23,985 bases of DNA from IMG/VR virus record IMGVR_UViG_3300035698_014425, positions 1 to 23,985 of that record. One strand, written 5' to 3'. The notes beneath the pieces are model-generated. The model was not told the origin of the DNA and made no database searches. It worked only from the letters and a program-made list of their open reading frames with translations. Made by a program: the position numbers and the translations under genes. Shown here in pieces: positions 535-22,889 of the stretch. Position 1 is the first letter of the stretch, and each line of letters opens with the position of its first letter. This DNA comes from a virus.

Positions 535-1065
535 ATGAAAATAAGACAAGGTTTTGTAAGTAACTCTTCAAGTTCTTCATTCATAGTAGATACAAACAAA
601 TATACTGTTAAAGAATTAGCTATTAATATGGCTAAAACTATGTATGAAATCTATGATTCAGAATTAATTCAAAAAATCAAAAATATGTCTGAAGATATTT
701 CATGTATTATATTAGATTATAGTGATGATTCTCAAATAGTCAAAGAAGGTAATAAATTATATGTACAATGTTCATATCATATAGATGACTGGAATTTTGA
801 CTATATTTCTTATCATGAAGAAGGAGAATTTTATGAAAAATTTGATGAAAAATATGAAAATTTCCAAGCATATTATCCAGAGTATAATATATTCGGCAAA
901 AAATGTTATATGGAGTATAGTAATTGTAATCAACCTGATTGTAATGGTGAAACATTCAAAATAAAATCAGGTGAGATTATTTGTGGAAAATGTTGGAAAG
1001 ATGAAAATGGTAAATACCCAAAACATTTAGACAGAAAATATAAATTAAATAGAATATTGAAATGA
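535..1065 (+). CDS. MKIR-SSSSSF N-terminal family protein with Cys cluster
   Basis: The 176-residue protein opens with MKIRQGFVSNSSSSSF, an N-terminus shared with four genes at 5110-7017. The middle is acidic and aromatic. Residues C124, C131, C136, C150 and C153 form a probable zinc-binding knuckle that includes GKCW. The last residues, RKYKLNRILK, match a basic motif seen in three other proteins of the window. There is no signal peptide or membrane segment. The stop overlaps the next start as ATGA at 1062-1065, so it is probably co-translated with the following gene. The start is fixed by the conserved N-terminus; another ATG at 519 is in a different frame. Function is unknown. Confidence 0.85.
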   Translation: MKIRQGFVSNSSSSSFIVDTNKYTVKELAINMAKTMYEIYDSELIQKIKNMSEDISCIILDYSDDSQIVKEGNKLYVQCSYHIDDWNFDYISYHEEGEFYEKFDEKYENFQAYYPEYNIFGKKCYMEYSNCNQPDCNGETFKIKSGEIICGKCWKDENGKYPKHLDRKYKLNRILK

Positions 1066-3165: not shown

Positions 3166-4284
3166 ATGAGTATAACAAATCTTAAATCACAAACATTACT
3201 TTCAGGGTTTTATGTAATATATAAAGGCAGTACAAATTTAGAGACAAAAGGAAACTATGGTATCAGTCATCTTACGGAACATCTGATGACAAAATCACTA
3301 GAGTGGATGATGGATGACTTCGATAAATTTTCAATTTCATGGAATGCATATACAACCAATGATCATATATGTTTTTACATGACAGGCTTAGATGAATATG
3401 TAAATAATTTCAAATATGATTTTATAGATAGTTTATCAAATTTTAACATATCACAAAAAGAATTTGATAATGAGAAAAAAGTGGTATTAGAAGAATTTAA
3501 AGATGTATATAATTCACAGTCCCAAAGTCATCAATTAAATTTAATGAGGAAATTATTTGATTATTATAATCCAATAGGATTAAGAGAAGATTTAGAAAAA
3601 TTAACATTGAAAGATGTTAAAGATTTTATGAAATTACAATACACTAAACCCCACCAAATTATTAATGTTTCTAAAAATAATGATTTCAAAGCTAAAATTG
3701 ATTTTGAGATTAAAATACCAGAAAAAACATTATATTATGGAGACTATAACAACACATTAGAATTAGAGAATGATTATAAAGGAAAATCATCTATAATTAA
3801 TATTTCCCAAATGATTAGAGAAGATTTCCCATATATAAAATTTGCAACATCTATGTTAGGCACAGGACTCAAATCTCCACTTTATCAGGAAATTAGAGAA
3901 AAAAGAGGTTTAGTATATTTTGTTAGATGTTATTTAAGTTCAGAAACAAATGATAGTGGTTTAATATTTATTGAATCAGAAACATCAAATGATAATGTTA
4001 TTGAATTCCAAGACACTGTTAAAATGGTTCTAGATAATCCTTCTAAATATATGACAAAAGAAAGATTTGAAATTGTTAAACAATCTTTTGAAATACAATT
4101 AAGAAAAAATGAAATCAATAGATATAGTAGTATTGGAAAATATATTACTCCTGTTGAATGGCAAGTAGAACCTATATTGAAATCTATCACATTAGATAAT
4201 GTTATGGAAGTATATGATAAATATTTCAACTTTGATACTTTTTATAAAAGCATAGACAAAGATGAATTCAAATTGGGACGATAG
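3166..4284 (+). CDS. M16 family zinc metallopeptidase (insulinase/processing-peptidase-like)
   Basis: The 372-residue protein carries the inverted zinc motif HxxEH as HLTEH (H35, E38, H39), and E109/E110 in EKKVVLEEFKD supplies the third zinc ligand expected about 70-77 residues later. The second half has the usual M16 signature: LGTGLKSPLYQEIREKRGLVYFV and a following GLIFIE strand. Both halves of the M16B clamshell are present, but the protein is shorter than typical ~420-residue bacterial members. There is no signal peptide, so it should act in the infected cell. The leader aaataaaataaaaa precedes ATG. Its role in a phage is unclear: peptide degradation, processing of a virion protein, or attack on a host factor are all possible. 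Confidence 0.88.
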   Translation: MSITNLKSQTLLSGFYVIYKGSTNLETKGNYGISHLTEHLMTKSLEWMMDDFDKFSISWNAYTTNDHICFYMTGLDEYVNNFKYDFIDSLSNFNISQKEFDNEKKVVLEEFKDVYNSQSQSHQLNLMRKLFDYYNPIGLREDLEKLTLKDVKDFMKLQYTKPHQIINVSKNNDFKAKIDFEIKIPEKTLYYGDYNNTLELENDYKGKSSIINISQMIREDFPYIKFATSMLGTGLKSPLYQEIREKRGLVYFVRCYLSSETNDSGLIFIESETSNDNVIEFQDTVKMVLDNPSKYMTKERFEIVKQSFEIQLRKNEINRYSSIGKYITPVEWQVEPILKSITLDNVMEVYDKYFNFDTFYKSIDKDEFKLGR

Positions 4285-5070: not shown

Positions 5071-5117
5071 AATATCCAAGTATAAATATTAAATTAAATT
5101 AAATTAAAAATGAAAAT
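5026..5117 (+). repeat. 92-bp direct repeat, copy 2
   Basis: This is the second identical copy of 4574-4665. It supplies the leader, the TATAAATA box at 5081-5088 and the first bases of the MKIR gene at 5110. Sequence diverges immediately on both sides. Confidence 0.95.
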
Positions 5118-5595
5118 TAGAAATGGTTTTGTAAGTAATTCGAGTTCAAGTTCTTTCGTAATGTTAGGATATGAAGTTGATTCTACAAAAGAAAATAAGA
5201 AATGGTTATTAGAAAATATCTATAAGATTGATATTTCTTCATTACCAAAAGATGAATGGGAAGAAAATCCTGTATGTTGTGGTAAAAAAAGAAGTGAAAA
5301 ATTTTGTCCAGAGTGTGGCGAACAATTAGAAAAAATTAAAAGAGTAGAAGATGCAGATATAGATGAAGTGTTTTATGAATCTATATATGAAGAAGAATCT
5401 GAATTTGATATAAGAGCAGATACTGACAATGGTGCACCAAGAGACAAAATATTAATTGGCTATGATATTGCATCTGGACTTGAAGATGGTGGTGATGGTA
5501 GTTGTGTTATTGAAGAACAAATAAAAAAATTAGAAGATAATAAATTACATGAAGATGTAAAAATCAAATTATATTGGGGCTCATATTGCTGTTAA
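5110..5595 (+). CDS. MKIR-SSSSSF family protein with zinc ribbon
   Basis: The 161-residue protein starts MKIRNGFVSNSSSSSF and continues with a CC-x8-CxxC zinc ribbon (C56, C57, C66, C69 in VCCGKKRSEKFCPECG). An acidic region follows, and the end is KIKLYWGSYCC. It is paralogous along its length to the gene at 6562 (VCCNN, FCPTCG, then ILIGYDI and KIKL near the end). It is the first of four tandem genes with the same N-terminus. The leader derives from the 92-bp repeat. No signal peptide fits the N-terminus: it is polar and Ser-rich. Function is unknown. Confidence 0.85.
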   Translation: MKIRNGFVSNSSSSSFVMLGYEVDSTKENKKWLLENIYKIDISSLPKDEWEENPVCCGKKRSEKFCPECGEQLEKIKRVEDADIDEVFYESIYEEESEFDIRADTDNGAPRDKILIGYDIASGLEDGGDGSCVIEEQIKKLEDNKLHEDVKIKLYWGSYCC

Positions 5596-5624
5596 TTTGT
5601 AAAAAAAAAAAAAAATGAAATAAA

Positions 5625-6149
5625 ATGAAAATTAGAAACGGTTTTGTAAGTAATTCAAGTTCAAGTTCTTTCATATGTGATATATGTGGACATAATGAAT
5701 CTGGATATGATCTAGGTTTATCTGATGCTGAAATGACAGAATGTGTAAATGGACATACATTTTGTGATGATCATATGATAGATATTGACAGAAAAGAAAT
5801 TTGTATATCATTATTAGAAGATTCTATTAAAGGTTATGAAAAATCAATAACAAAAGATGAAGAGGATGATAATGAATATTATAAAAAATATTTAAAAAAA
5901 TATACTGATATTTTAAGTACGATTGATACATTAGATGAAGATGAAATAGAAGATCTATTAAATGAAGATTTAGAATATAGATATAATGCACCAGAAATTT
6001 GTTGTCCAATATGTCAATTACAAAAATTATCAGATACAGATGCACTAAATTATTTATTATTTAAAAATGGTATAACAGTTGAGAATCTATTGGGAGAAAT
6101 TAAAGAAAAATACACAACATATAAAAATTTTAAGGAGAAATTAAAATGA
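5625..6149 (+). CDS. MKIR-SSSSSF family protein with two Cys/His clusters
   Basis: The 174-residue product begins MKIRNGFVSNSSSSSF. Residues C18, C21, C40, H44, C47 and H50 (CDICGH, then CVNGHTFCDDH) look like a RING- or ZZ-like zinc module. A second cluster, EICCPIC (C126, C127, C130), lies after an acidic helical spacer. The stop TGA overlaps the next ATG as ATGA at 6146-6149. The upstream spacer from 5596 has a run of A and aaataaaATG. Beyond the shared N-terminus it does not resemble its neighbours, which suggests that the N-terminus is a portable tag. Function is unknown. Confidence 0.85.
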   Translation: MKIRNGFVSNSSSSSFICDICGHNESGYDLGLSDAEMTECVNGHTFCDDHMIDIDRKEICISLLEDSIKGYEKSITKDEEDDNEYYKKYLKKYTDILSTIDTLDEDEIEDLLNEDLEYRYNAPEICCPICQLQKLSDTDALNYLLFKNGITVENLLGEIKEKYTTYKNFKEKLK

Positions 6150-6562
6150 AAATAAGAAATGGTTTTGTAAGTAATTCAAGCTCAAGCTCTTTTATCATCA
6201 TAAACAAAAAAGGCGGAGAATTAAGTAAAGATAAATTAATGGAAATAATGGATGTTCATATAAATTCACCAATGTATATATTTGCAAAAGAAATAGTTGA
6301 TGTAATATATAATAGTTGTTCATCATCAAAAACATTAGAAGATTTTAAAAATGAATATTATGGTTCATATGGTACAATGGAAGATTTTAGAGAAGAAGAA
6401 CCAGACATGGTTAAAATGTTTGAAGAATGCCTTGAAAAAGGTTGGAGTTATCATCATGGTTCTGTATCTGATGAAGAAGGTGGTATGGAATCAGCACTTT
6501 GTAGTATGAATATAGATTTTGAAGATGATAACATAAAAATAGAAAAAGATGGGGGATATTAA
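6146..6562 (+). CDS. MKIR-SSSSSF family protein, acidic
   Basis: The 138-residue protein has MKIRNGFVSNSSSSSF, then a highly acidic, helical body with Met- and Glu-rich stretches (EEEPDMVKMFEECLEKGW, SDEEGGMESALCSM). It has no zinc motif, unlike its three neighbours. It overlaps both neighbours: ATGA with the gene before and one base (TAATG) with the gene after. A GGAG-like string (aaggag, 6131-6136) lies ten bases before the start, within the previous gene. Function is unknown. Confidence 0.83.
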   Translation: MKIRNGFVSNSSSSSFIIINKKGGELSKDKLMEIMDVHINSPMYIFAKEIVDVIYNSCSSSKTLEDFKNEYYGSYGTMEDFREEEPDMVKMFEECLEKGWSYHHGSVSDEEGGMESALCSMNIDFEDDNIKIEKDGGY

Positions 6563-7017
6563 TGAAAATAAGAAATGGTTTTGTAAGTAATAGTAGTTCC
6601 AGTTCATTTGTAATAATTGGAAAAAAATTAGAAAAAACACAAGATAATTGCAAATATATATGTGATAAATTTTTAATTATAAACGAAAAAGAAATAAATG
6701 AATTTAAAGAAATGGTATGTTGCAATAATGAAATAAAAAATAATTTCTGTCCTACTTGTGGTAAACACATAGATGATATCGAAGGCACAATAAATTATAT
6801 GGCATTATTAAATGAATACCAATATGATATATCTGATATAGATATTCATAGTACTGAAGATGACACTATAATTGGTATATCTATTGATTTGAATTTAGAA
6901 CATGATTCTATTGATATTGATAAATTCATAACTAAAATGAAAAATGCTAAAAAAGAAGTAGAAAAAATAGGTATTGATGGTAAAATCAAATTACATTGCG
7001 GTACATCATACACTTAA
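6562..7017 (+). CDS. MKIR-SSSSSF family protein with zinc ribbon
   Basis: The 151-residue product carries MKIRNGFVSNSSSSSF and the ribbon VCCNN-x8-FCPTCG (C53, C54, C63, C66). The acidic second half ends KIKLHCGTSYT, so it is a paralogue of the gene at 5110 (KIKLYWGSYCC). It is the last gene of the tandem array and is followed by a strong stem-loop with a T-run. Its Ser codons are AGT-AGT-TCC-AGT-TCA, different from its neighbours although the peptide is the same. Function is unknown. Confidence 0.85.
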   Translation: MKIRNGFVSNSSSSSFVIIGKKLEKTQDNCKYICDKFLIINEKEINEFKEMVCCNNEIKNNFCPTCGKHIDDIEGTINYMALLNEYQYDISDIDIHSTEDDTIIGISIDLNLEHDSIDIDKFITKMKNAKKEVEKIGIDGKIKLHCGTSYT

Positions 7018-7169: not shown

Positions 7170-7640
7170 ATGAAACCAGAAGAAAAAATTTTAATAGATA
7201 ATTTTAATAAATGCTTTTTTATGACTCATGATGATTATCCTGATAATATATTACATGTTTATGATAAAAAAATATTAAGACAACGCAAATTAAATAGAGT
7301 TTTGAATGAAAATACTGAAATAAAATTAAAACCATCAAAGGATTCTTCAATAATTTTATTTAGACAGGATTACAAAAATAACTATTTTTGGGTAAATTAT
7401 AATGAAATTTGGTCATTATTAGAATCAAAATATGGACTTAATTACAAAGAAATCAAAGAGTTAATAAAGGATACCTTGTTGGAACCTGACAAAATGAAGG
7501 CATTAACACCTCTTGCAAATCATCTCTCGTTACCGAAGTGCTTGTTGGAACCTGACAAAATGAAGGCATTAACACCGATTATTGGGGAAACGACCTTTAT
7601 CTTGTTGGAACCTGACAAAATGAAGGCATTAACACTCTGA
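7170..7640 (+). CDS. hypothetical protein interrupted by in-frame repeats
   Basis: The first ~100 residues look like one small phage protein: an N-terminal domain with DYPDNILHVYDKK, the motif ILRQRKLNRVL (35-46), and a C-terminal part FWVNYNEIWSLLESKYGLNYKEIKELIKD. After this come three copies of LLEPDKMKALT separated by unrelated 8-10-residue pieces, and a TGA at 7638-7640. Past that TGA the frame stays open with NDATKELELVEPDKMKELF and ends in TAA at 7728-7730, overlapping the next ATG. The native C-terminus is therefore probably the part beyond 7640, and the repeats plus stop are a later change. TGA is an ordinary stop elsewhere (1063-1065). Confidence 0.65.
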   Translation: MKPEEKILIDNFNKCFFMTHDDYPDNILHVYDKKILRQRKLNRVLNENTEIKLKPSKDSSIILFRQDYKNNYFWVNYNEIWSLLESKYGLNYKEIKELIKDTLLEPDKMKALTPLANHLSLPKCLLEPDKMKALTPIIGETTFILLEPDKMKALTL

Positions 7641-7690
7641 AACGATGCCACGAAGGAGTTAGAGCTTGTTGAACCTGACAAAATGAAAGA
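7475..7690 (+). repeat. array of three identical 35-nt repeats plus a diverged fourth copy
   Basis: The 35-nt unit starts cttgttggaacctgacaaaa and ends atgaaggcattaacac. It occurs without change at 7475, 7541 and 7601. A fourth copy at 7665 lacks one G and matches only through aaaatgaa. The spacers are 31, 25 and 29 nt, unrelated to one another and visibly richer in GC than the phage. Distances between the GAA codons are 66, 60 and 63 bases, so all copies keep frame. Ordinary tandem duplication would have copied the spacers too. Confidence 0.9.
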
Positions 7691-7719
7691 ACTTTTTCAT
7701 TTTCTTCTAACACTAACAA

Positions 7720-8973: not shown

Positions 8974-10245
8974 ATGGGGAAAATGGGAGATAAACAAAAA
9001 GAAATCATTAGTAATATTGAACTTATTGATGGTTCTATTGCTATTGTAAAAGATACAGAAAAATACAAAGCACTAAAATCAGAAGATTATAATTTTTTCT
9101 TCAATAAGAAAGATGGTTATTTTGTAAGATGGGGAAAAGGAGATTATACTAATAAAAAAACTAAAGCTACTAAAGAAGAATTAGAACTTTATTTTTTATG
9201 GTGCTCAATTTGGAAAGAAAAATTTGATATAAACGAATTTATTAGTGATTTGGATACTGATGGGAATTTATACCAAGGTCTGCCGGAAATAGCAGATGTG
9301 GAAATTTCAACCTCGTGCCACGGAGTTTCTATAAATGGTAAAAAGGCTTCTCCTTGTAGGTTTTGTTATAAATCAAATCATCCAAGAAAAAACGGTGAAG
9401 GTAATATGACATTAGAAACATTCAAAAAAGTTTATTCAGTTTTACCAGCATCCATTGGACAAATAGCATTTGGTATAACAGACATAGATGCAAATCCTGA
9501 TATGTGGAAAATATTTAATTATACAAAATCAAACGGTATTATACCTAATGTCACAATAAATTGTGATAGAATGACAGATGAACGATTTGACAAATTAAGC
9601 CAAATATGTGGCGCAGTTGCATGTAGTTACTATGATAAAGATTTAACATTTAATGCTATAAAAGAATTAACTGACAGAGGAATGACACAAGTAAATATAC
9701 ATTATATGATTTCCTCTCAAACATTTGATGCTGCTATGCAACTTATGAAAGATTATAAAACAGATAAAAGATTGGAAAAATTGAATGCTATTGTTTTTTT
9801 AAGTTTAAAACCAAAAGGTAGTAAAAATACACATACTCGTTTAAGTGATGAGAAATTTAAAGAATTGTCAGATTATGCATTAGATAATAATATCCCTCAT
9901 GGATTTGATTCCTGTTCACAGCCCAAATATATTAAGAGTATTAAAGGCAGAAAAGATGCTTCGCATTTAGAACAATATACTGAGAGTTGTGAAAGCACGT
10001 TATATAGTTTATATATCAATTCTGGTGAAAAAAACAAAAAAGGTGAAAGTGATCCTAAATTTTATCCTTGTTCATTTTCAGAAAAAGTTGAAAATGCTCC
10101 TGGCAATTGGTCAGAAGGTATATCAATTTTAGAATGTAAAGATTTTCTAAAAGATGTATGGTTTAACCCAAAAGTCAGAATATTTCATGATGTAACAGTT
10201 GACAATAAAAATAAATGTATTGCTTGTCCTATGTATGAAATTTAA
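8974..10245 (+). CDS. radical SAM protein with SPASM-like C-terminal Cys cluster
   Basis: The 423-residue protein contains EISTSCHGVSI followed by SPCRFCYKSNHP: C115, C128 and C131 make a Cx12CxxC cluster in place of the common Cx3CxxC, a spread form known in some radical SAM groups. A TIM-barrel-like stretch follows (GQIAFGITDIDANPD, VTINCDRMT, VNIHYMIS). The C-terminus has several cysteines, including YPCSF, LECKDFL and CIACP (C415, C418), as in SPASM/twitch domains that bind extra iron-sulfur clusters. Such enzymes modify peptides or other substrates by radical chemistry. No precursor peptide gene is adjacent. The substrate is unknown. The start gives MGKMGDKQKE; the inner M4 is an alternative. 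Confidence 0.85.
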   Translation: MGKMGDKQKEIISNIELIDGSIAIVKDTEKYKALKSEDYNFFFNKKDGYFVRWGKGDYTNKKTKATKEELELYFLWCSIWKEKFDINEFISDLDTDGNLYQGLPEIADVEISTSCHGVSINGKKASPCRFCYKSNHPRKNGEGNMTLETFKKVYSVLPASIGQIAFGITDIDANPDMWKIFNYTKSNGIIPNVTINCDRMTDERFDKLSQICGAVACSYYDKDLTFNAIKELTDRGMTQVNIHYMISSQTFDAAMQLMKDYKTDKRLEKLNAIVFLSLKPKGSKNTHTRLSDEKFKELSDYALDNNIPHGFDSCSQPKYIKSIKGRKDASHLEQYTESCESTLYSLYINSGEKNKKGESDPKFYPCSFSEKVENAPGNWSEGISILECKDFLKDVWFNPKVRIFHDVTVDNKNKCIACPMYEI

Positions 10246-10257
10246 TTTTGATAATTT

Positions 10258-10307
10258 AATTGCAATATCTCTATTACACAATATCGATATTGTAATTACT
10301 TTTTTTT
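10258..10307 (+). terminator. stem-loop terminator after the radical SAM gene
   Basis: AATTGCAATATC (10258-10269) pairs with GATATTGTAATT (10286-10297) with one G-T pair, followed by a T-run at 10300-10307. A nested exact 16-nt palindrome ACAATATCGATATTGT lies at 10278-10293 and offers an alternative fold. The right arm overlaps the end of the convergent endonuclease gene. Confidence 0.65.
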
Positions 10308-11531
10308 GAATTTGTCTATAAAATCTTCTTCTGTTTTGGAATTCTTCATACTATTAATATATCTTTTTGTAATACACAAATTATCTATATTTGAAATATT
10401 TTCTATGCTTATATTATTCAAATACCCATACAGAATACTATTTTTATGGTCAACAGTTGGATATAACCTATCATTTGAATTTAATAACAAATTCTCTTTT
10501 ATATATTTATCATCATAATAATCATATCCGTCCCATATTTCATACAATTTTTTATAATTTGAATGAGACAAAGTTATACAATTTCTCTTATATTTAGAAA
10601 AATCTTTAATATTATCACTACAAACATTAAATCCATCTTCTATTAATTTATTTCTTAATTCCATTTTAAATTTATAATATTTAAAATAATTATCAACTCC
10701 ATATTTTTTTATTAATATTTTTTTAATACTTTCTTTGAAAATATCAGATAGAAAATAATGTTCTACTCCAAATCTTTTCAAAGATGTTTTTTTAATTTTT
10801 TCATTAAATTCGTCTGTTTTTGAATAATGTTCTACTCCATATCTTTTTGTACATGTGCTTTTAATTTTTTCTTTATATTCATCTGTTTTTGAATAATGAT
10901 CTACTCCATATTTTTCTAAATATGTTTTTTTAGATTTTTCAATAACTGATTTAGATTGTAATGAACAAACAACACCATATTTTTCTATATTTTTATCTTT
11001 TATTTTCTCTTTATATTCATCTGTTTGTGTATGGTGTTCAACACCATATTTTTTTAAACAAGAATTTTTGGTTTTCTCTTTTTTGTTATTACTTTGTAAA
11101 TAATATTCAACTCCATATTTCTTTAAACATGTCTTTTTATCTTTCTCTTTTTTATCAACACTTTGTAAATAATATTCAACACCATATTTTTCTAAACAAG
11201 TCTTTTTCTTTTTTGTTTTTGTAGTTTCTAATAATGCAACATTATCCACACCATATTTTTCTAAACATGTTTTTTTGGTTTTTATTCCTTTATGTTTAAT
11301 ACAGACATATGTTTTTTGATTATTGTAATTTTTATAATAATCTCTAAAAAGTAATGTTTTTTCTACACCACACACATCACAACATGCAATAACTGGAATT
11401 GTACTTCCTCTAATTAAATCTTCAGCTTTAATAATTGTTATGTCACCTATTTTAACATCATATCCCATATTTATATAATGTTCTATATTATACTTCATTA
11501 TTTTTATTTTAAAATCTACACTAATTAACAT
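10296..11531 (-). CDS. HNH-type homing endonuclease with KYGV repeats
   Basis: The 411-residue protein has about nine ~26-residue repeats, each around KTCLEKYGVEYYLQS-KKEK, between residues ~80 and 300. Such repeats are known in phage-encoded homing nucleases and probably bind DNA. The last ~95 residues (GYDYYDDKYIKEN, YPTVDHKNS, DNLCITKRYINS) are nearly the same as those of the gene at 1796, whose DNA-binding half is quite different. The start at 11531 is one base after the stop of the upstream RHH gene (TGA-T-ATG), which suggests translational coupling. An inner start at 11498 (MKYNIEHYIN) is possible. Near the N-terminus, IACCDVCG is a possible zinc knuckle. Confidence 0.83.
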   Translation of the reverse strand: MLISVDFKIKIMKYNIEHYINMGYDVKIGDITIIKAEDLIRGSTIPVIACCDVCGVEKTLLFRDYYKNYNNQKTYVCIKHKGIKTKKTCLEKYGVDNVALLETTKTKKKKTCLEKYGVEYYLQSVDKKEKDKKTCLKKYGVEYYLQSNNKKEKTKNSCLKKYGVEHHTQTDEYKEKIKDKNIEKYGVVCSLQSKSVIEKSKKTYLEKYGVDHYSKTDEYKEKIKSTCTKRYGVEHYSKTDEFNEKIKKTSLKRFGVEHYFLSDIFKESIKKILIKKYGVDNYFKYYKFKMELRNKLIEDGFNVCSDNIKDFSKYKRNCITLSHSNYKKLYEIWDGYDYYDDKYIKENLLLNSNDRLYPTVDHKNSILYGYLNNISIENISNIDNLCITKRYINSMKNSKTEEDFIDKFKKK

Positions 11532-14455: not shown

Positions 14456-15652
14456 ATGTATAATTATAAAGCATATAGTAAAATTTTAGAAACCTTATCA
14501 AAAGATAAAACAAACATGAAATATTATATTCCAACATATGAAGATGCAATAGAAATGGTAAAATCCAAAGGTGAATTGGTTTTTTATGAAACTAAACATG
14601 AAATAGATGGCTACCAAGTATCTGTATTCAATTATAGACTTGCACAATACACAGACTTCATTAAACCAGTAAAAGGTAGAGAAGATATAATAGATGCTAA
14701 AGAGATGAGAGGATTAACATATGTATTCGATAATGGTTCTCTATACAAAAGATATATCATGTTACAGAAATTCTGGAATGTAAACCAAGTCACCGAAACT
14801 CAATACAATGTAATAAAAGATTTTAAAATAAAAGCTGTTTATAATAAAGAAGATGGTTCACTTATATCTTTTATCCAGTTGCCTAATGGTAAAATTATAC
14901 CAAAAACTAAAATGGGATTTGATAATGATCAAACAAAAGAAACACAAAAGATATATGACACTGATGAAAATATACAAAACTTCGTTAAATGGTGTTTAGA
15001 TAATGATATGGTATCTATGTGGGAATATGTATCATGGCAAAATAAAATTGTATTAAATTATAATGAACCAGAATTGATATTATTGAAAGTAAGAAATAAT
15101 ACTACTGGTGAATATATAGATATTGAAGATTTTAGAGATAGAGGTATCAAGATTGTAGAAGGTGAAAAAGTAGATAACCTTGATGATTTGATGAAGAAAG
15201 CAGAAACAGATAAAGATAAAGAAGGATGGGTTATTCAATTTGATAATGACTATTTAGTAAAGCAAAAAACAGCTTGGTATTTTTTAAAACATCGTATGTT
15301 AGATAATTTATCTCAAGAAAATATCATCATAGAAATGATATTAAATGAAACTATAGATGATGTATTATCACAGTTAGATGAAGAAAGAGATTCAGAACAA
15401 ATTGAATGGGTAGAAAATATAGAAAATAAGATAAAAACTTTTATAAATAAAAAACAAGAAGATGTTGAAAAACTACTAAAGAAATATAATAAAGATATAA
15501 GAGAATTTGCTATAAAAAACAATAAAGATATAAATTTTGGGATAGCTATACAAGTTATTAGAGGTGGAGATTTATATGATAGTATTAAAAATTATATTAA
15601 AAAACAAACACACAAATTAGAAAAAGCTAGAATATTTTTAAGAAATATCTAA
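14456..15652 (+). CDS. rnlA: T4 RNA ligase 1 family (Rnl1) tRNA-repair ligase
   Basis: The 398-residue protein has the Rnl1 order of nucleotidyltransferase motifs: AKEMRGLTY, motif I KEDGSL with the AMP-accepting Lys at about K131, motif III WEYVSWQNKIVLNY (about 189-202), motif IV KEGWVIQF (about 255-262) and motif V YLVKQKTAWY (about 266-275). The C-terminal helical region suits the Rnl1 tRNA-specificity domain. By family knowledge it seals 3'-OH and 5'-phosphate ends, as in repair of tRNAs cut by host anticodon nucleases. No polynucleotide kinase gene is visible in the window. The last 15 bases overlap the convergent GIY-YIG gene. Confidence 0.93.
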   Translation: MYNYKAYSKILETLSKDKTNMKYYIPTYEDAIEMVKSKGELVFYETKHEIDGYQVSVFNYRLAQYTDFIKPVKGREDIIDAKEMRGLTYVFDNGSLYKRYIMLQKFWNVNQVTETQYNVIKDFKIKAVYNKEDGSLISFIQLPNGKIIPKTKMGFDNDQTKETQKIYDTDENIQNFVKWCLDNDMVSMWEYVSWQNKIVLNYNEPELILLKVRNNTTGEYIDIEDFRDRGIKIVEGEKVDNLDDLMKKAETDKDKEGWVIQFDNDYLVKQKTAWYFLKHRMLDNLSQENIIIEMILNETIDDVLSQLDEERDSEQIEWVENIENKIKTFINKKQEDVEKLLKKYNKDIREFAIKNNKDINFGIAIQVIRGGDLYDSIKNYIKKQTHKLEKARIFLRNI

Positions 15653-16696
15653 TATCTCCCAATTTATACTATTTACAACATTAATTATCTTATGATTTTC
15701 TCTGAGTTTCTTACTTATTTTTCCTTTATTTATATTTTTAAGAAAAGTAAAATAACTTAAATTATTTTCATTACAAAATTTACTAATATTATTAATAAAA
15801 GTAATTTCACCATTAGGTGAAATTGCTTTCCATTTTATTGGCACTATACTTTCCCATGATTTAATTCTACCATCTTTTTCATAATTAATAAATTCCCAGT
15901 TCTCACAATTTAATACTTCAACTTTATTTGTTCTTTTTTTTATTATTTTTATTTTACCATTATTTCTATTTCTACTAATTGTCCTGATATCTAAATTATA
16001 TTCATTACAAAATAAATGTATTTTATTAAATTTATATTCTTTTCCATTAGGATCAACTAAAACATATTTATATTTTTCTATAATAGGAATATCATCTCTT
16101 ATTACTTCCCAACCATTACAATTTATTGTTTCTTGTTTAGGACTAAATCCACTATTATTTAATTTTATTTTACCTCTATTTACAAACTTTCTCAATTTAT
16201 GAAAATTCAATTCATTCTTTCTACAGAAATCACTCAAACATACATTTTCATATCTTTTATTATCTGGACTAATTAGAATAAAATTCTTATTAACTCTTCC
16301 TTTTCCAGAAACTGATAACTTCTTTTTTGTTTCTTCTGTATGTTTATAACCTTCTTGTACATGAATTCCACCATAATTTTCATTAGTTAATATATCTAAT
16401 CCTATTTTCTTTATTGTTTTTCTTTCTAATTTTAATGATTCTAACTCTTTTAGATTTTCTTTTATCTTTATTATTATAGGTTCCATATCTGAATATAATA
16501 TTTCTCTTATGGTTTTATATTTCTTACTATCTTTATATTTATTTTTATTTTTAACTTGTATTAAATGTCTATAACATCTATCATTTTTACCTTTACCTAT
16601 ATAAAATGGCTTATATTTATATTCTATACCATTATATATAAATTGTCCTTTTTCTCTTGGATCTAAATAAGCATATACATAATATTCATTTTCCAT
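15638..16696 (-). CDS. GIY-YIG homing endonuclease with repeat DNA-binding tail
   Basis: The 352-residue protein starts with a GIY-YIG nuclease: YYVYAYLDP (5-13), PFYIGKGKNDRC (30-41) and a later ESLKLERKTIKKIG helix with the expected Glu. Next is HTEETKKKLS (NUMOD3-like). Three repeats then follow, each with a P-[DN]-[GN]-x-[YF] strand, an FC-x-N-x-L helix turn and RNRGK-like basic ends (about 140-200, 215-275 and 287-345), probably a modular DNA-binding tail. Its 3' end overlaps the last 15 bases of the RNA ligase gene. The start codon lies in a hairpin that may limit translation. Confidence 0.9.
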   Translation of the reverse strand: MENEYYVYAYLDPREKGQFIYNGIEYKYKPFYIGKGKNDRCYRHLIQVKNKNKYKDSKKYKTIREILYSDMEPIIIKIKENLKELESLKLERKTIKKIGLDILTNENYGGIHVQEGYKHTEETKKKLSVSGKGRVNKNFILISPDNKRYENVCLSDFCRKNELNFHKLRKFVNRGKIKLNNSGFSPKQETINCNGWEVIRDDIPIIEKYKYVLVDPNGKEYKFNKIHLFCNEYNLDIRTISRNRNNGKIKIIKKRTNKVEVLNCENWEFINYEKDGRIKSWESIVPIKWKAISPNGEITFINNISKFCNENNLSYFTFLKNINKGKISKKLRENHKIINVVNSINWEILDIS

Positions 16697-18590: not shown

Positions 18591-18945
18591 TATTTATAAT
18601 GAAAGTAATGATGATTTTAATTCATTTGTAAATGGAGATATAGTTAGATTAATTTGGAATAAAGAAGAACATATAGCCAGAATAGTAAACAAAAAATCTA
18701 ACAATTCTTATATAGTAAATATACAAAGAAATAACCATTTCTTGCCTAAAGGTGTTCTAGTTAATGGTGATGATATTATTGAATTAGTTACTGGTAATTC
18801 AGAACCGGCTGAAGGAGATTCATGGACCAAATTTAAGATGGGCAAGGTTAGCAATGATATGGCTATTAATAACTATGGCTCAGGTGGCAATGATAGTGTA
18901 ACTAACATAGATACTGCTGGAGGCTTAGGTGTCGCAGGACCATAA
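18568..18945 (+). CDS. hypothetical protein with KTFD-x-YNES N-terminus
   Basis: The 125-residue product begins MKHLKTFDIYNES. From memory, a MK-[HY]-[IL]-KTFE/D-x-[FY]-NES start is common among unknown proteins of large tailed phages. Next is a strand-rich domain (GDIVRLIWNKEEHIARIVNKK, GVLVNGDDIIELV) that looks like a small SH3/KOW-type barrel. The C-terminus is Gly- and Asn-rich (NNYGSGGNDS, AGGLGVAGP), probably disordered. The stop lies inside the end of the convergent endonuclease gene (21-bp overlap). Confidence 0.7.
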   Translation: MKHLKTFDIYNESNDDFNSFVNGDIVRLIWNKEEHIARIVNKKSNNSYIVNIQRNNHFLPKGVLVNGDDIIELVTGNSEPAEGDSWTKFKMGKVSNDMAINNYGSGGNDSVTNIDTAGGLGVAGP

Positions 18946-20001
18946 ACATTCAAGTTTATCTTCAATATTTTCTTTATAACTTATTCTTATAAGTTTTATA
19001 TCATTTTCTTTACAATATACCGTTTTAATATTATCTCTTATTTTTATATTTTTAAATTCTTTTTCTCCACCCCATTCGTTTATTGGTTCATAATGTTGTC
19101 TACCATCATATTCTATACATATATTATATTCTGGTAAATAAAAATCAAATGACAATTTCTTAATATTAATACAACCTTTAAATTTTTGTTGTCTCTCATA
19201 TTTAATTTTATAATCATCTAATATATTTGATATTTTAATCTCTCCTTTACTTTCTCTACAAGTAGGACAACCTGAACCACCTAAATGGTTATCAGGTTTC
19301 TGTAAAAATTCTCCATGTTTATTGCAAATAATTTTTACTTTAGTTCCACAATTTTCATATTCAACCAAAGAATAATCATATTTATCACCGTGTATATTAA
19401 TTGATTTTTCTATAAATTCTTCTGTATTTGATTTATAATTACCTGCACAATAAATACAGCCTTTACCTCTGAGGTGATTGTTTGGTATTTGTTCAAATAT
19501 ACCATGTTCTGGACAAATTATCTTAACATTATCTAACCAATTTTTATATTCTACTAAAGAATAATCATATTTATCTCCATGAATTTCTTTAGATTTTATT
19601 ATAAATTCTTCTGTATTAGATTTATAATTACCAGAACACTTAGAACAACCTGCACCATTCATATGATTACAAGCAATTTGTTCAAATATACCATGTTCTG
19701 GACAAATAATTTTCACTTTTTTCTTATTATTATAATATTCGACAAGTGAATAGTCATATTTATTATCATGAATAATTTTTGATTTTTTAATGAAATTTTT
19801 TTCTTTAGTTTTTATATTTTTTGTACAAATTTGACAACCTCTACCATATAAATGATGTTTAGGACTTATCAAAAAAACACCATGTTCTGAACAAATAATC
19901 TTTACTTTCATAGACGAATTTATATACTCAACTGATGAATAATCATATCTATCTCCGTGAATATTAATTGATTTTTCTATAAATTTAATTGTTTTGATCA
20001 T
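18925..20001 (-). CDS. Vsr-like (EDxHD-type) homing endonuclease with four DUF723-like repeats
   Basis: The 358-residue protein has four repeats of KYDYS-VEY, KVKIIC-EHG-F, NHL-G-GC-C type (about 5-60, 68-121, 132-186 and 197-251). The nuclease at ~255-350 reads FDFYLPEYNICIEYDGRQHYE, then IRDNIKTVYCKEN-IKLIRISY. The EYDG-QHY and RD residues fit the Vsr-fold EDxHD nucleases such as I-Bth0305I. Its repeats match those of the gene at 1796, but the nuclease half is unrelated. A tttaatatataa element lies before the start. The 3' end overlaps the convergent gene at 18568. Confidence 0.88.
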   Translation of the reverse strand: MIKTIKFIEKSINIHGDRYDYSSVEYINSSMKVKIICSEHGVFLISPKHHLYGRGCQICTKNIKTKEKNFIKKSKIIHDNKYDYSLVEYYNNKKKVKIICPEHGIFEQIACNHMNGAGCSKCSGNYKSNTEEFIIKSKEIHGDKYDYSLVEYKNWLDNVKIICPEHGIFEQIPNNHLRGKGCIYCAGNYKSNTEEFIEKSINIHGDKYDYSLVEYENCGTKVKIICNKHGEFLQKPDNHLGGSGCPTCRESKGEIKISNILDDYKIKYERQQKFKGCINIKKLSFDFYLPEYNICIEYDGRQHYEPINEWGGEKEFKNIKIRDNIKTVYCKENDIKLIRISYKENIEDKLECLWSCDT

Positions 20002-21968: not shown

Positions 21969-22889
21969 TTATCTTAATCTTATAAATTTACATTTAAGAT
22001 AATTTGTTATTTCATCTTGTCTTCTCTTGTCTTTTTCATTAAGATTACCATACTTATCAAAATGATGTGTTTCATCATATTCATATACAATATTATTTTC
22101 TTCATCATATCCGTCCAACCAATACCCTAATTCTTTTATGTAATACTCACCACCATTCATTGCATGTTGTATGTGTATTGATTCCTTTTTACTAATACTA
22201 TCAAATATTCCACAAGCATATTTATTATAATTTGGAAAAATTTGAAATCCATTTTCCAAATTTTTATTTATTCTTTCTATTGTCTTCGTCCTAACACTTC
22301 TAATACCACAAATTCTACATCCATAACCTTTATCAGTATGGTTAAAAGGATATTGCAAAAAATATTTATTACAAGTATTACAATATATTTCAACTTTTGT
22401 TTTTGCATTAATATATTTTGTTTTATCATAATTATATTTGTCACCGTGAATATCTTTTGATCTTCTAATAAACTCACTATTTGTTAAATTTTCATGATTT
22501 GTGCAAAATTTACAAGAATGTTTATTATATAAATGATTACTAGGTGACTGTTCAACAATTGACCCGCAATCATTACAATATAATTTAACCTTTGTTGTTA
22601 CATTTTTATATACAACAAAATCATATAAATACTTGTCACCGTGAATATCTTTTGATCTTCTAATAAACTCATCTTTTGATAATCTAATATTACCCGCACA
22701 TTTAGGACACGCTTTAGGGTTAGTTTTATGTGTATGGTTATTTGGACTTTGTTTAAAAATGCCATGTATAGGGCAGATTATATTAACCTTAGTCATAGTA
22801 TTTATATACTCAACTAATGAATAATCATATTTTTCACCATGAATTTCTTTGGACTTATTAACAAATTCTTCACATGTTAATCTTGGCAT
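21969..22889 (-). CDS. Vsr-like homing endonuclease with three DUF723-like repeats
   Basis: The 306-residue protein has three zinc repeats: KYDYSLVEYI, then KVNIICPIHGIF and CPKC; KYLYDFVVYK, then KLYCNDCG; and KYNYDKTKYI, then EIYCNTC. The C-terminal ~110 residues include GYWLDGYDEENNIVYEYDETHH, then KDKRRQDEI and CKFIRLR, a PD-(D/E)xK/Vsr-like core. The nuclease half is different from that of the gene at 18925 except for the E-YD-xxH and RQD/RD pattern. The start follows the previous stop directly (TAA-ATG). It is probably a mobile gene placed between the 22890 gene and its terminator. Confidence 0.85.
   Translation of the reverse strand: MPRLTCEEFVNKSKEIHGEKYDYSLVEYINTMTKVNIICPIHGIFKQSPNNHTHKTNPKACPKCAGNIRLSKDEFIRRSKDIHGDKYLYDFVVYKNVTTKVKLYCNDCGSIVEQSPSNHLYNKHSCKFCTNHENLTNSEFIRRSKDIHGDKYNYDKTKYINAKTKVEIYCNTCNKYFLQYPFNHTDKGYGCRICGIRSVRTKTIERINKNLENGFQIFPNYNKYACGIFDSISKKESIHIQHAMNGGEYYIKELGYWLDGYDEENNIVYEYDETHHFDKYGNLNEKDKRRQDEITNYLKCKFIRLR

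Follow-up and report, generated by a model that had tools for sequence, protein, structure and literature searches.

Why should five proteins of one viral locus begin with the same residues and then diverge, and what in the cell would make use of such a start? The locus lies in a 23,985 nucleotide stretch of viral DNA (IMG/VR record IMGVR_UViG_3300035698_014425), the whole of which was analysed and is referred to here as the window. Five of its predicted proteins, all encoded on the + strand, start with MKIR[N/Q]GFVSNSSSSSF, termed the tag below.

Five proteins of the window share an N-terminal tag

The tagged genes are as follows.

535..1065, + strand: tagged protein 1, 176 aa; tag MKIRQGFVSNSSSSSF at 535-582; body with Cys residues
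5110..5595, + strand: tagged protein 2, 161 aa; tag at 5110-5157; zinc-ribbon-like body
5625..6149, + strand: tagged protein 3, 174 aa; tag at 5625-5672; zinc-finger-like body (ICDxCGxxxSGxD...CPIC)
6146..6562, + strand: tagged protein 4, 138 aa; tag at 6146-6193
6562..7017, + strand: tagged protein 5, 151 aa; tag at 6562-6609; zinc-ribbon-like body

A first-pass annotation of the window had reported these five shared starts, and all were found again: a degenerate DNA pattern for GFVSNSSSSSF matched at exactly the five sites and nowhere else, with none expected from 100 dinucleotide shuffles. The last three tagged genes are tightly packed, the starts of 6146 and 6562 overlapping the preceding stop codons.

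The same annotation had described the bodies behind the tag as unrelated. This holds for three of them, but tagged proteins 2 and 5 are distant homologues (27% identity between the bodies, E 7e-7), so that the five proteins carry four distinct bodies. No family match above cut-off was found for the body of protein 1, and that of protein 5 has a weak likeness, below cut-off, to the zinc domain of the MqsA antitoxin. The body of protein 4 is homologous to the tagged protein of bacterial defence-like cassettes described below (phmmer; L129, L155, L154 and L139), while about 35 tagged proteins elsewhere form one family with that of protein 3. No known domain was detected above cut-off on the tagged bodies, and a search for untagged homologues of the window bodies in phages returned zero matches. 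An AlphaFold (AF2) model of protein 3, built on 34 relatives, has a pLDDT of 90.9 and shows a well-folded body with its first strand from residue 13, whereas residues 1-10 are of low confidence, as expected for a disordered end. A fold search with this body against the PDB gave no significant match.

The tag is conserved as a peptide and is carried by many different bodies

When scanned for exactly, the pattern ATG-Lys-x-x-x-Gly-Phe-Val-x-Asn-(Ser/Thr-like)5-Phe was present in at least 120 viral stretches, and 84,980 genomes of bacteria and archaea contained 32 stretches with it. Isolates that carry the tag include the T4-like phages RB16, RB43 and KP15. The collected loci yielded 454 tagged proteins, mostly of 60-390 aa. 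Since the Met lies exactly five residues ahead of the Gly in 313 of the 333 proteins of the first set, and the remainder mostly have apparent GTG or TTG starts, we conclude that the motif occurs strictly at the N-terminus. Hydrophobic residues fill positions 17-18 in about 95% of copies, which extends the tag to approximately 18 residues.

The commonest 16-mer, MKIRNGFVSNSSSSSF, occurs in 92 copies with 89 different DNA spellings. Across S11-S15, 30 patterns of AGY and TCN codons occur, and both codon classes are mixed at every Ser. It is therefore the peptide, and not the DNA, that is conserved, as had been suggested from the swapped Ser codons of the window copies. Tags are more alike within a genome than between genomes, and because the same is true of their Ser codons (likeness of codon class 0.63 within a stretch vs 0.53 between stretches) local duplication could explain this.

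Of the bodies, 444 have at least 50 aa; BLAST groups these into 115 components, and HMM-HMM comparison reduces the 36 larger body groups to 17 superfamilies without profile links; by this measure, at least 17 profile-unlinked body superfamilies carry the tag. No Pfam domain is common to more than one of 144 tagged representatives, and the concern that the bodies might prove to be a single domain family, with the shared start merely part of its fold, is not borne out. The diversity counted over the 444 bodies, together with the modelled disordered end ahead of a folded body, instead supports the earlier proposal of a portable N-terminal tag. In composition, 96% of the bodies are net acidic and many are rich in Cys and aromatic residues; no shared motif was found.

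The protein group phrog_7397 is matched by 126 of the 144 representatives, and on the window proteins these matches cover essentially the tag alone. A single representative matches phrog_132. The KP15-like tagged protein is annotated as 'head-tail adaptor' in some Klebsiella phage records (L118 and related); this label was probably transferred through phrog_132 and is possibly a misannotation.

A radical-SAM enzyme gene accompanies the tag

One further gene of the window, overlooked in the first-pass annotation, bears on the role of the tag.

8974..10245, + strand: radical-SAM enzyme, 423 aa; Cx12Cx2C motif (C115, C128, C131); candidate auxiliary-cluster cysteines C314, C339, C366 and C418

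It lies on the strand of the tagged genes, 1,957 nt past the last of them, with three same-strand ORFs between, and elsewhere relatives of the enzyme share operons with tagged genes. When stretches were fetched by the tag alone, as pieces of 1-15 kb, the enzyme was present in about 60 of 152 (61 with the window), and in these 156 of 158 tags were on the enzyme strand, with the nearest tag at a median of 61 bp. Whole tag-bearing viral records were also searched with profile A1, built from tag-linked enzymes. The enzyme was found in 38 of the 45 records of at least 100 kb and in 14 of the 39 shorter ones, a gap that is what fragmentation of short records predicts. Seven tagged records of more than 100 kb have no enzyme and may be incomplete or use another copy. 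A contig of 132,519 bases (L072) carries eight tags, mostly with Asn, Ser or another residue rather than Gly at position 6, and the enzyme is absent from the record; it may be a partial genome or may use a divergent enzyme.

The converse search, with the enzyme profile alone, fetched 80 viral loci, of which 74 have a tag within 6 kb by a relaxed expression and 70 by the strict one; in three of the remaining six records tags lie at a greater distance. Every tag in the enzyme-fetched loci (299 of 299) is on the enzyme strand, and the relaxed variants SFVANSS, DFVTNSS and DYITNSS adjoin more divergent enzymes. Among 57 control viral stretches picked by a random 15-mer, few of them contigs over 100 kb, there were no tags and no enzymes, and 29 whole random records and two T4-like relatives had neither. 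The difference between 74/80 and 0/57 is highly significant (Fisher p 4e-32), with the qualification that these counts are not fully independent, because the enzymes behind A1 were themselves tag-linked and the phages are related by descent.

In RB43, 24 kb separate a tagged gene (68.6 kb) from the enzyme (92.8 kb). Among 50,697 annotated phage records, 172 have the enzyme and 174 have one tagged protein of RB43, and the counts of enzyme and tagged protein match by organism (Klebsiella 110/114, Enterobacter 20/20, Cronobacter 14/14, Citrobacter 11/11, Escherichia 9/9). The link thus goes beyond adjacency, although the 172/174 co-occurrence represents one lineage rather than many events, since these phages are close relatives. 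The RB43 enzyme itself is split into ORFs RB43ORF169c and 168c in different frames (L265, RB43 92,712-93,858), and is one open frame in RB16 and KP15.

Outside phages, a plasmid search by the bacterial enzyme alone found eight records. In all four close relatives examined (Agrobacterium pAt and pAt2, Rhizobium and Rhodobacter) the adjoining gene, annotated by depositors as a hypothetical protein, starts with MK[IL]K[ML]DFVSNSSSTSF[IV]Y; the fifth record examined, a 26%-identical outgroup, has no tagged gene next door. The bacterial enzyme type occurs with T9/T14 in the tag and the phage type with S9/S14, a co-variation that is expected if enzyme and tag meet. We conclude that there is a near-obligate genetic link between the tag and this radical-SAM enzyme family.

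Predicted structure and relatives of the enzyme

C115, C128 and C131 are nearly invariant in 35 enzyme sequences, and the motif they form carries a variable insertion, reading Cx3-15Cx2C across the family, or Cx7Cx5C in one bacterial group. The match of the window enzyme to PF04055 falls just under the cut-off (E 8.5e-6). That of the enzyme from Lachnobacterium bovis (L145), where a radical-SAM/SPASM gene directly follows a tagged gene, has an E of 9.8e-15, and the two enzymes are homologous (25% identity, E 2e-27). The bacterial type also scores above the cut-off for the SPASM family PF13186 (27.0 vs 21.5 bits); the phage type has four conserved C-terminal Cys residues, fewer than the full SPASM set.

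An AF2 model of the window enzyme (pLDDT 85.8) has a β-rich N-terminal region and matches the folds of SuiB (Z 24), SkfB (21), anSME (19.5) and CteB (19), followed by viperin, BlsE, PqqE, ChlB, TigE and EpeE. On the strength of its three-Cys 4Fe-4S motif and the predicted TIM-barrel core, the protein can be assigned to the radical-SAM superfamily, and its putative auxiliary-cluster cysteines are those expected of radical-SAM/SPASM maturases. No match to a family of the RRE, the winged helix by which such maturases bind the leader, was found in the enzyme, the β-rich N-terminal region having been modelled only within the whole protein.

Sequence libraries say little about this family. The window enzyme has no NCBIfam match, it is matched by phrog_7293, for which no function is given, and a search of solved structures by sequence with the phage-type enzyme gave only weak matches to BtrN and SkfB. 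Depositors mostly label the enzyme hypothetical, and sometimes 'radical SAM protein' or 'Fe-S oxidoreductase'.

Bacterial loci place the pair beside Avs-like NTPases

Bacterial tag loci share a gene order of STAND NTPase, protein of approximately 140 aa, tagged protein and radical-SAM enzyme (L126, L133, L138, L145, L151, L130, L129, L155 and L144). The 140 aa protein is of a GMRKGSFA type in several loci, and some cassettes add a protein of approximately 300 aa. The piece fetched for Veillonella (L151) does not extend as far as the enzyme; the same genome encodes it, near a tag. Avs2 models match six of the seven cassette NTPases scanned (E 7e-12 to 5e-29), with none for L130. The NTPases have NACHT matches and trypsin or SMEK N-termini, and L126 and L151 encode an extra Avs1a-like metallo-β-lactamase. 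Judged by these matches, the cassettes have the defining feature of Avs systems, an Avs-related STAND NTPase whose N-terminal effector can be swapped, and they look like a candidate anti-phage system. Plasmid loci L328-L330 and L332 are candidates of the same kind. No dedicated PADLOC or NCBIfam model was found for the cassette tagged protein or enzyme, and no PADLOC model for the whole cassette.

Other features of the window

Among the plus-strand genes lie minus-strand genes with a common motif.

1796-2866, 10296-11531, 15638-16696, 18925-20001 and 21969-22889, - strand: proteins with the repeat motif HGxKYDYSLVxY...KIICPxHGxFEQ and HNH-like ends or a GIY-YIG-like start

These are probably inserted mobile or homing elements. 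At 7472-7698 there are four copies of a repeat of approximately 34-38 nt (CTTGTTGGAACCTGACAAAATGAAGGCATTAACAC), spaced by 60-66 nt with unique stretches between and the last copy degenerate. The repeat has no Rfam match, and is either a CRISPR-like mini-array or a coding repeat (LLEPDKMKALTP) in ORF 7170-7640. ORF 106-444 ends in a sequence (YPNPTQ...GTYIIIS) that resembles a type A sorting tail of the T9SS and, if it is one, would point to a host among the Bacteroidota. The product of 12475-13812 matches phrog_11908 and appears SPFH/prohibitin-like. The gene at 3166-4284 encodes an M16-type peptidase (HLTEHL), in a phage; considered as a partner of the tag, it was rejected, as among the tag loci it is present in only one other (L099).

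A proposed two-part system for modification of the tag

We consider it likely that tag and enzyme form a two-part system, in which a trans-acting radical-SAM enzyme recognises and modifies the shared N-terminus. Since a dedicated enzyme gene nearly always accompanies the tag, the tag is probably both its recognition and its modification site, and since in phages the tag has no further conserved partner gene (no third gene above 10 of 81 loci), an enzyme acting through the tag is the simplest reading. The first-pass annotation had guessed at four functions, and modification of the Ser run is favoured among them because of the genetic coupling between the tag and a radical-SAM enzyme.

Which residues would be involved can be judged from 276 tags of the enzyme-fetched loci. 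S11, S12 and R4 are invariant, with one exception at N10 and four at K2, although this invariance is relative only, as the search expression demanded S/T at 11-12, R/K at 4 and N/D at 10. Position 7 is F, Y, H or W, position 8 is V or I, and position 16 is F or Y except once. Position 6 varies (G/S/D/N/K/C/Y), positions 13-15 are tolerant (T, A, G, C, E, N and others), and position 9 takes S, A or T, which makes Ser9 an unlikely target.

We infer the action of the enzyme on the tag, with its site, chemistry and purpose, as follows. A single enzyme per phage, in the window that of 8974-10245, would serve in trans up to about ten otherwise unrelated small proteins, through a shared substrate element consisting of MKxRxGFVxNSSSxSF and two hydrophobic residues. 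The flexible N-terminus would enter the enzyme, so that recognition signal and substrate would be one. The enzyme may grip the MKxR and the Phe-hydrophobic-hydrophobic end, while the 5'-deoxyadenosyl radical and an auxiliary Fe-S cluster would change one of the strictly kept central residues, Asn10-Ser11-Ser12 being the likeliest region. The product may be a crosslink with one of the neighbouring Phe residues (Phe7 or Phe16), an aldehyde formed by oxidising Ser, as happens when sulfatases mature, or an epimerised residue; all three are candidates, and the crosslink is our first guess. The modified end might lend the diverse bodies a common property, for example a reactive, protease-resistant or partner-binding N-terminus.

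Phage-host conflict is a likely setting, given that the tagged proteins of large phages are small, acidic and quick to diverge and lie in tandem arrays, and that the bacterial context is Avs-like. More tentatively, it is possible that in large phages one enzyme rewrites the tag on proteins of host takeover or counter-defence, that the bacterial Avs-like pair matches this, and that the modified tag is a contested signal; we would not yet favour this extension.

The tag could instead be a leader-like recognition handle only, with the docked enzyme modifying residues in each body, which we regard as improbable. Classical RiPP maturases do hold an N-terminal leader and act C-terminal to it (PMC8326336), and the many Cys- and aromatic-rich bodies would be in keeping with such targets. 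However, as the bodies have no common motif, the enzyme would need hundreds of different sites, and the strictest residues, N10, S11 and S12, are ones that a plain handle need not keep.

A role of the tag in assembly or localisation (as a signal for packaging into the virion or for a phage nucleus or shell), with the enzyme linked for another reason, is very unlikely. The tag carriers are large phages, and the T4 capsid-targeting sequence (CTS) is a known short conserved N-terminus for packaging, one that is cut at (L/I)xE by the prohead protease. The 454 tagged proteins have no conserved Glu in positions 1-22, though, and so no conserved (L/I)xE site. Neither a structural nor a protease gene is conserved with the tag, which leaves the suggested virion packaging and cleavage by a phage protease without support. 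The tag and enzyme family also occur in bacterial and plasmid cassettes that lack virion genes, and targeting to a compartment is likewise without support. Finally, a DNA- or RNA-level device (recombination arm or translation signal) or a recent 5'-end duplication, which the common tandem arrays and the slightly closer Ser codons within a stretch might recall, is largely refuted and close to negligible in view of 89 spellings in 92 copies, mixed Ser codon classes and conservation across phages, bacteria and plasmids.

With modification of the tag by the enzyme as the preferred reading, hundreds of phage proteins of unknown function gain a shared and testable biochemical partner, and the presence of the pair in long-known T4-like phages (RB16, KP15) makes it immediately testable. 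If true, this would be a new way of modifying proteins, by a trans-acting radical-SAM enzyme and a portable N-terminal tag, and the tag might be a genetically encodable one for protein labelling.

Comparison with known systems

A literature search for the tag, the tag-enzyme pair, phage radical-SAM or RiPP enzymes and AVAST with radical-SAM, in which subscription papers were thinly covered, returned nothing relevant, and no curated family describing the tag-enzyme system was found. The groups phrog_7397, for the tagged proteins, and phrog_7293, for the enzyme, exist already, unannotated and with no stated link between them.

In fold, 4Fe-4S motif and candidate auxiliary-cluster Cys residues the enzyme is like the radical-SAM/SPASM maturases of RiPPs (SuiB, SkfB, CteB, PqqE, ChlB, TigE and EpeE), and as in those systems its gene adjoins a substrate recognised, as proposed here, at the N-terminus. 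It differs in the variable insertion of the cluster motif, and in that the place of one short leader-core peptide is taken by many folded proteins, constant in the tag and variable in the body, as candidate substrates. No conserved peptidase or transporter was found beside the tagged genes. Since the putative substrates are diverse folded proteins and no export or cleavage genes are conserved beside them, this is not a classical RiPP cluster.

Anaerobic sulfatase-maturating enzymes (anSME) work in trans on many large proteins, at a Ser or Cys within a short internal motif (C/S-x-P/A-x-R). The structural match and the proposed service in trans to many proteins are points of likeness, whereas the Ser run here is N-terminal and the sequence family is different. 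With the T4 CTS the tag shares the form of a short conserved N-terminus on diverse phage proteins, those of T4 being internal proteins, but it has no (L/I)xE site and is present outside phages. The bacterial cassettes are like AVAST/Avs systems in having an Avs2-like NACHT NTPase whose N-terminus is of trypsin or SMEK type, and in the Avs1a-like metallo-β-lactamase of two loci. Unlike those systems they add a tagged protein and a radical-SAM enzyme, and the pair within Avs-like cassettes raises the question of what such immune systems sense.
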